The notes under the pieces are model-generated. The model was given only the letters and a program-made list of their open reading frames with translations. It made no database searches and was not told where the DNA came from. A DNA stretch of 64,000 nt from positions 6,055,195 through 6,119,194 of the forward strand of contig OY979721.1 in the NCBI GenBank assembly GCA_963855995.1, given 5' to 3'. Shown one piece after another: positions 661-2,532 of this stretch. Made by a program: the position numbers and the translations under genes. The DNA comes from Muricea muricata. Taxonomy: Eukaryota > Cnidaria > Anthozoa > Malacalcyonacea > Plexauridae. Position 1 is the stretch's first letter; each line of letters begins with the position of its first letter.

Positions 661-768
661 GTTTTCAGTGCTAAAGTGAACGAGTTGAGCGCAATGATGT
701 ACTGCAATCACGGACCTAAAAGAGACTTTCTAAATGGAAATTGCAGAACTTAGCAAGTCGGGAATCAT
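661..768. repeat. Internal sub-repeat A of the monomer (108 bp)
   Basis: First third of the monomer, starting at a GTTTTC word (monomer position 15). Its first 46 bases match the corresponding start of sub-repeat B at about 32 of 46 positions without a gap (hand alignment). The match includes CGAGTTGAGCG against CGAGATGAGCG and then CAATGA against AAATGA. The remaining 62 bases match B at about half the positions. The A-to-B spacing is exactly 108 bases in monomers without indels. Confidence 0.75.
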
Positions 769-876
769 GTTTTCGGCGCTCAAACCATCGAGATGAGCGA
801 AATGACATGTTGAAATGAGAAACCTATAACTTGGTTGTAAACTGAAAAGAAACGATCTTAGAACCATCAAAATCAC
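769..876. repeat. Internal sub-repeat B of the monomer (108 bp)
   Basis: Middle third, starting at GTTTTCGGCG (monomer position 123). It aligns with A without gaps and with C with one 1-base gap. Against C the shared blocks are GTTTT-GGCG, then ATGAGCG against TTGAGCG, then ACATG followed two to three bases later by AAAT, giving about 33 of 48 matches. The tails of A and B also share ACCTA, CTTAG and AATCA at equivalent positions. This supports descent of the monomer from a shorter unit of about 108 bp. Confidence 0.75.
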
Positions 877-886
877 GTTTTAGGCG

Positions 887-894
887 TTCTAGAA
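887..894. other. Conserved 8-bp palindrome TTCTAGAA
   Basis: A perfect palindrome at monomer positions 241-248, repeated in almost every monomer. Exceptions are few: TTCCAGAA at about 10,577, 59,981 and 61,918, and altered forms such as TCTACAAG at about 48,687. It contains an XbaI recognition sequence, so the array should give a 323-bp ladder with that enzyme. It ends three bases before the dyad element. A role in protein binding is possible but unproven. Confidence 0.85.
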
Positions 895-896
895 GC

Positions 897-924
897 GATT
901 TGAGCGTAAAAACATGCTCAAATC
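897..924. other. Dyad-symmetry (hairpin-capable) element, one per monomer
   Basis: Arms ATTTGAGC (898-905) and GCTCAAAT (916-923) are exact reverse complements separated by a 10-nt A-rich spacer. In monomers reading CAAATCACC, as here, an outer G-C pair makes a 9-bp stem. In those reading CAAATAACC the stem is 8 bp. A G-T and a T-A pair could extend it inward. Many monomers keep both arms; others carry GATTTAAGC or AATTTTAGC in the left arm, which weakens the stem without matching changes on the right. So selection on the base pairing itself is not shown. Dyads of this kind are reported for centromeric satellites that lack CENP-B boxes. Confidence 0.8.
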
Positions 925-2532
925 ACCAACTAAAAATCGCCGCTTCAAATCGATCAGAGCAACGTTTTAGAGCTTAAAATGAGGTTTTCATTGCTAAAGT
1001 GAACGAGTTGAGCGCAATGATGTACTGCAATCACGGACCTAAAAGAGACTTTCTAAATGGAAATTGCAGAACTTAGCATGTCGGGAATCATGTTTTCGGC
1101 GGTCAAACCATCGACATGAGCGAAAGTACATGTTGAAATGAGAAACCTATAACTTGCTTGTAGACTGAAAAGAAACGATCTTAGAACCATAAAAATCGCG
1201 TTTTAAGCGTTCTAGAAGCGATTTGAGCGTAAAAACATGCTCAAATCACCAACTAAAAATCGCCGTTTTAAATCGATTAGGGCGACGTTTTAGAGCTTTA
1301 AATGAGGTTTTCAGTGCTAAAGTGAAAGAGTTGAGCGCAATGATGTACTGCAATCACGGACCTAAAAGAGACTTTCTAAATGGAAATTGCAGAACTTAGC
1401 ATGTCGGGAATCATGTTTTCGGCGCTCAAACTATCGAGATGAGCGAAATGACATGTTGAAATGAGAAACCTATAACTTGGTTGTAAACTGAAAAGAAACG
1501 ATCTTAGAACCATAAAAATCACGTTTAAGGCGTTTTAGAAGCGGTTTGAGCGTAAAAACATGCTCAAACAACCAACTAAAAATATCCGTTTTAAATCGAT
1601 CAGGGCGACGTTTTAGAGCTTAAAATGAGGTTTTCAATGCTAAAATGAACGAGTTGAGCGCAATGACGTTCTGCAATCACGGACCTAAAAGAGACTTTCT
1701 AAATGGAAATTGCAGAACTTAGCATGTCGGGAATCATGTTTTCGGAGCTCAAACCATCGAGATGAGCGAAATGACATGTTGAAATGAGAAACCTATAACT
1801 TGGTTGTAAACTGAAAAGAAACGATCTTAGAACCATCAAAATCAAGTTAAAGGCGTTCTAGAAGCGATTTGAGCGTAAAAACATGCTCAAATAACCAACT
1901 AAAAATTGCCGTTTTAAATCGATCAGGGCGACGTTTTAGAGCTTAAAATGAGGTTTTCAGTGCTAAAGTGAACGAGTTGAGCGCAATGATGTACTGCAAT
2001 CACGGACGTAAAAGAGACTTTCTAAATGGAAATTGCAGAACTTAGCAAGTCGGGAATCATGTTTTCGGCGCTCAAACCATCGAGATGAGCGAAATGACAT
2101 GTTGAAATGAGAAACCTATAACTTGGTTGTAAACTGAAAAGAAACGATCTTAGAACCATCAAAATCACGTTTTAAACGTTCTAGAAGCGATTTGAGCGTA
2201 AAAACATGCTCAAATCACCAACTAAAAATCGCCGCTTTAAATCGATCAGCGCAACGTTTTAGAGCTTAAAATGAGGTTTTCATTGCTAAAGTGAACGAGT
2301 TGAGCGCAATGATGTACTGCAATCACGGACCTAAAAGAGACTTTCTAAATGGAAATTGCAGAACTTAGCATGTCGGGAATCATGTTTTCGGCGGTCAAAC
2401 CATCGACATGAGCGAAAGTACATGTTGAAATGAGAAACCTATAACTTGCTTGTAGACTGAAAAGAAACGATCTTAGAACCATAAAAATCGCGTTTTAAGC
2501 GTTCTAGAAGCGATTTGAGCGTAAAAACATGC

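Follow-up and report, generated by a model that had tools for sequence, protein, structure and literature searches.

The 323-bp satellite monomer of Muricea muricata is well supported, as judged from its letters and those of its relatives, as a fossil trimer: three diverged copies of a unit of about 108 bp that appear to have become a single amplification unit. Stepwise duplication and divergence (21.5 to 108 to 323 bp), followed by amplification of the 323-bp block, very probably produced this monomer. A sequence-only reading of the same DNA had proposed both the fossil trimer and an older satellite of about 108 bp from which it came. The trimer is upheld by similarity, direction of change, separate clades and frozen order of the thirds, whereas the older satellite was not found.

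Organization and distribution of the 323-bp array

The stretch analyzed, referred to here as the window (64,000 nucleotides, positions 6055195-6119194 of contig C6, in a genome of 453 Mb and 74 contigs), consists from 1 to 64000 (+) of an uninterrupted 323-bp satellite in a single orientation (TRF period 323, 198.2 copies). The 197 monomers cut from it had a consensus of 323 bp; 177 were of exactly this length, 18 were 322 bp, and one each was 324 and 321 bp. Mean identity was 0.960 to the consensus and 0.940 between pairs, and such a long head-to-tail array with high monomer identity is satellite DNA. Higher-order blocks, sought by comparing the identity of monomers up to 40 repeats apart, were weak and irregular, the largest shares of pairs with at least 98% identity being 0.177, 0.164, 0.124 and 0.124 at distances of 16, 14, 4 and 28 monomers. 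The CpG observed/expected ratio of the window consensus was 1.56, and CpG positions were more variable (0.065 vs 0.037).

According to the probes, the array lies in the interior of C6 (16.98 Mb) and extends over about 1.74 Mb. It begins between 5.12 and 5.15 Mb and ends at 6.889 Mb; all 24 probes between 5.15 and 6.86 Mb were covered by it, and the satellite was absent from all nine C6 probes outside it (5.00-5.12 and 6.90-8.00 Mb). The orientation of the array flips between 6.51 and 6.53 Mb (probes L010-L014, L018, L019, L021, L022 and L050-L065). The few monomers sampled at 5.15-5.27 Mb were farther from the consensus than most of those at 5.34-6.5 Mb.

The satellite is present on more than one chromosome, as probes and fetched places showed it on C1, C2, C3, C5, C6, C7, C8 and C10. 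Satellite-positive probes numbered one of eight on C5, one of ten on C7 (plus a 45-bp fragment), one of six on C8 and two of six on C10, and none of the ten probes on C4 had a match at E 0.01 or better. A 34-letter pattern fitting thirds A and B (see below) had 30,151 matches in the genome, and the reversed control had 0. Relatives of the window monomers were taken from the probes and from the first-listed places among these 30,151 matches.

The three thirds of the monomer

The following features were placed in the example monomer at 661-983, all on the forward strand:

661..768 (+), third A, 108 bp, by alignment
769..876 (+), third B, 108 bp, by alignment
877..983 (+), third C, 107 bp, with a one-base gap near column 17 relative to A and B
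686..691 (+), TGAGCG core of third A, offset 26
794..799 (+), TGAGCG core of third B, offset 26
901..906 (+), TGAGCG core of third C, offset 25

Each third opens with GTTTT (at 661, 769 and 877). The sequence-only reading had described thirds of 108, 108 and 107 bp aligned in register, with these GTTTT and TGAGCG landmarks, and all of this was found again. Its hand-made identities (about 70% for A-B and 69% for B-C over the first part, roughly half over the remainder) were reproduced at 70.8% for both pairs over the first 48 columns and at 50% (A-B) and 42% (B-C) over the remainder; for A-C the values were 62.5% and 45%, with one gap in C in each case. Its additional point, that 108+108+107 gives 323 exactly, carries no weight as evidence, since the sum follows from the placement of the cuts.

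In the raw window, identity at lag 108 was 0.475. The background, taken from 943 lags up to 1000 that avoid multiples of 107.7, was 0.266 +- 0.027, which puts lag 108 at z 7.9. Lag 108 was the top lag below 323 in all six 10-kb blocks (1-60000), and the signal therefore belongs to the array and not to a single monomer. Lags 108 and 215 were both prominent in the raw 64 kb, and TRF independently reported a period of 108 over 117-63905. Gapped identities between the consensus thirds were 0.574 (A-B), 0.625 (B-C) and 0.565 (A-C), and the score of the aligned thirds was not matched by any of the 2000 dinucleotide shuffles made for each pair. Identical bases in A, B and C occupied 44 of 108 columns, compared to 8.3 +- 2.7 in 20,000 shuffles (largest 21); the count used a fitted gap in C, for which the shuffles received no equivalent adjustment. 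The thirds are thus homologous internal copies, in register above shuffled controls, and both checks that had been suggested for the trimer (self-alignment of the consensus against shuffles, and an excess at lag 107-108) came out in its favor.

Order of the thirds and search for a free 108-bp repeat

No third-third junction departed from the A-B-C-A order among the 1943 junctions of the window and 113 fetched loci, which are not all independent because several fetched loci overlap the window. Genome-wide, exact patterns for A-A, B-B and C-C neighbors at about 108 bp had 0 matches each, and diverged copies would escape such patterns. Within the window, the same A, B and C cores gave 162, 26 and 105 pairs at 323 bp and 0 at 108, so the exact patterns work. 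A looser A-A pattern at 108 had two matches among the fetched loci, both in L110, where a third C (assigned from junction order) bears an A-like core.

The older satellite of about 108 bp was therefore not recovered from the genome with exact patterns. As no free 108-bp array was found, its former existence is something that we infer, with a single triplication as an equal rival; a free 108-bp satellite in this genome's past is plausible. An ancestral 108-bp layer at the array edge was also considered and was rejected, because in six edge monomers (C6, 5.15-5.27 Mb; 0.892-0.944 identity to the consensus) the thirds were no closer to each other than those of the core.

Descent of the thirds

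Relatives on several contigs yielded 14 subfamily consensi, of which eight rest on one to three monomers each. One third was omitted because of gaps, so that the tree held 41 of the 42 thirds, and in it A, B and C formed separate clades of 14, 14 and 13 members with support of 0.94, 0.31 and 0.98, respectively, that of B being weak. The trimer therefore predates the split of the sampled subfamilies.

If the thirds come from a common unit, mutations are expected to move lineages away from the state kept by the other thirds. Where a lineage differed from the group consensus, the base at 108 bp agreed with the older state in 352 cases and with the newer one in 184 (0.657), and lag 108 ranked first of 158 lags (mean 0.506, sd 0.050). 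When the tested group was excluded from the consensus, the counts were 156 to 70 and lag 108 again ranked first of 158; with neighbors taken from the lineage itself they were 145 to 76, and lag 108 ranked second of 158, behind lag 131. A column-wise test on the thirds gave 390 to 198 (0.663, compared to 0.508 +- 0.055 for 101 shifts, largest 0.632). Changes have thus carried the copies apart from a shared older state. Mean identity of the thirds was 0.590 in the group consensus, 0.581 in the first 10 kb of the window and 0.430-0.569 in the other lineages, where a basis of one to three monomers in itself lowers the figures of the consensi concerned. The thirds of the group consensus are barely closer than those of the window, and the reconstruction thus covers little of the way back.

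A sub-period of about 21.5 bp

The strongest Fourier components of the consensus were harmonics 30, 45 and 15, corresponding to 10.77, 7.18 and 21.53 bp, so that 323 is 15 x 21.53 and 108 is 5 x 21.5. This periodicity within the 108-bp unit is an addition of the present analysis, as the sequence-only reading went down to the 108-bp level and missed the one below it. None of 5000 column shuffles preserving the trimer reached the harmonic sum of 12.43, and one of 5000 did when the A+T/G+C pattern was preserved as well. Under the latter control the single harmonics 15, 30 and 45 were weaker than the sum (reached by 42, 722 and 26 of 5000). The feature is listed as:

661..983 (+), fifteen diverged sub-units of about 21.5 bp, five per third (from Fourier analysis, elastic fit and reverse-complement profile; the fit was made to the array consensus and not to the example monomer)

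The fitted unit is about CGTTTTAAGCGCTAAAACATG, a near-palindrome that closely resembles its reverse complement. Units from different positions within the 108 bp share 0.381 identity, compared to 0.314 in controls (reached by 0 of 600) or 0.335 in controls that keep A+T/G+C (reached by 4 of 600). The reverse-complement profile of the monomer shows the same comb (reached by 23 and 25 of 3000 controls), a result that is not independent of the spectrum, and no single reverse-complement match within the monomer was unusual (the best was reached by 151 of 3000 controls). A dispersed satellite fragment on C2 (L112 1518-1604) carries a 41-bp tandem duplication, equal to two units of about 21 bp.

In the leave-one-out direction tests, lags 20, 129 and 89 in one and lags 131, 129, 20 and 22 in the other were among the five best, and their closeness to multiples of 21.5 may be taken as suggestive only. 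At 21.5 bp itself the direction test gives a weak signal (mean 0.540 vs 0.506); this was the best period tried, yet 13.5 bp gave 0.538. Exact tandem copies of one unit, GTTTTAGAGCTTAAAA, at a spacing of 19-23 bp numbered 0 genome-wide. A 22-bp tandem repeat of 5.4 copies adjoins a satellite fragment on C1 (L106 1502-1619).

Several subfamilies differ in monomer length. One of 297 bp on C1 had 99% matches over 3.5 kb, and others were of 320-322 bp on C2 and 264 bp on C10. The lengths 297 and 264 bp, and a spacing of 269 bp, fall 26, 59 and 54 bp below 323, which are not multiples of 21.5 or 108. It was also observed that L107, L103 and L111 (periods of 297, 264 and about 269 bp) have in common a shortened third C of about 80 bp, and that in L103 and L111 only the second half of third A matches.

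Proposed origin of the monomer and alternative explanations

In the proposed stepwise history, a near-palindromic unit of about 21.5 bp (about two helical turns) would have been multiplied about fivefold to give the unit of about 108 bp. Three adjacent units of this kind, after or while diverging, would have been locked into one 323-bp block, and only this block would then have been amplified and homogenised by unequal exchange in 323-bp register. This would have led to the long 323-bp arrays on several chromosomes, among them the one of about 1.74 Mb on C6, at sites that are probably centromeres. Within this scheme we infer how the exchange took place, which of the two early steps came first and the centromeric role.

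The founder monomer could also have been made by a single local triplication of about 108 bp, with no 108-bp satellite array ever having existed, and to this we give somewhat under an even chance. Local triplication without a long 108-bp array accounts for the data as well, and it agrees with the lack of A-A, B-B and C-C neighbors at about 108 bp, both genome-wide (exact pattern) and in the 1943 junctions. This absence is weak, however, since turnover would erase an old array and exact patterns miss diverged copies; moreover, many satellites are described as having gained longer units from shorter repeats through successive rounds of duplication (PMC5615363). A direct passage from fifteen 21.5-bp units to 323 bp, with no 108-bp stage, would fit the 21.53-bp comb, which stood out above the other periods tested in the consensus, but it is very unlikely: identity at lag 108 (0.486) is much higher than at the other multiples of 21.5 (0.32-0.36 at the best lag within about 2 bp), and the order of columns along the thirds is common to them.

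The periodicities might instead reflect selection for DNA shape (helical-phase A/T tracts, nucleosome fit) and not descent from sub-units. The A+T/G+C pattern alone peaks at 10.77 bp, harmonic 30 alone is not unusual when this pattern and the trimer are kept (722 of 5000), and the columns common to the three thirds vary less in the array (0.0285 vs 0.046-0.054, P 0.007). We nevertheless regard this explanation as unlikely, as shape does not call for the same letters at lag 108 (44 three-way columns) or for older states in agreement with the other thirds, and the 21.5-bp comb outlasts the shape-preserving shuffle (1 of 5000). It is also doubtful that the monomer is to be seen as fifteen near-palindromic units of 21.53 bp, two helical turns each, kept in phase by selection for centromeric chromatin while their letters drifted, with DNA geometry setting the lengths of 21.5, 107.7 and 323 bp. 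Base composition raises the background identity of an A+T-rich sequence such as this, but as the cause of the likeness of the thirds, chance or composition is refuted by the shuffles (0 of 2000 per pair) and the lag background (z 7.9 against 943 lags), and has a negligible probability.

Comparison with known satellites

Alpha satellite retains monomeric arrays of about 171 bp. Unlike this system, no monomeric 108-bp array was found here with exact patterns, and about 40% of sites differ between the thirds. The proposed trimer would be similar to the higher-order repeats of primate alpha satellite in that adjacent diverged monomers became the amplification unit (as described in PMC5615363).

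That monomers can grow from shorter repeats is documented (PMC5615363). Histories of this type are well known from other animals and plants. The centromeric satellites of mouse, tilapias and sparids are described as having grown from a unit of about 9 nt (PMC5615363). The stepwise history suggested for the 323-bp monomer would resemble these in the repeated duplication and divergence of a short unit, and differs from them in the units (21.5, 108 and 323 bp) and the phylum, the likeness being by description and not by sequence. Helical-phase A/T tracts and near-palindromic units are also features of the dyad-symmetric satellites of insects, for which PMC8122249 describes curved DNA; here these features are read from the sequence.

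The literature search found no account of this 323-bp satellite with a 108-bp unit, none on octocoral satellite DNA and centromeres, and none that was cnidarian by title. The present analysis offers a probable growth history (21.5, 108 and 323 bp) that can be read in an octocoral satellite, and with one genome holding several subfamilies spread over different contigs, the order of ages becomes testable by ancestral states, beyond similarity.

Possible centromeric role and genome context

The satellite is likely to have a centromeric role, as the long interior array on C6 and the interior matches on C5, C7, C8 and C10 fit centromeres. What we take to be the core of the CENP-B box, TTCGNNNNANNCGGG, had 10 matches in the window with up to two mismatches, compared to 114 expected, and a CENP-B-box satellite was rejected because these matches were fewer than by chance. 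An origin from RNA genes (tRNA, rRNA) was likewise rejected, as no Rfam match was present in the window at gathering thresholds, and a search for plasmid relatives found none.

At the start of C6, CCCTAA telomere repeats extend from base 1 over 5.4 kb (L009 1-5873). After them come about 490 bp of a telomere-like repeat with an 8-bp unit, AACCCTTA, at 100% matches. Two further tandem repeats, with periods of 181 and 355 bp, were observed at contig starts (L025, C2:1-1200, and L031, C10:1-1200). Contig sizes are bimodal, with 124, 72 and 61 Mb followed by 19 Mb or less among those sampled. Contig C74 (19,292 bp) carries mitochondrial genes, named by eye from translations under code 4, with a single tRNA-Met. 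It also contains a long frame that appears, by eye from its translation, to be MutS-like with an HNH-like end; a mitochondrial mutS is a mark of octocorals.
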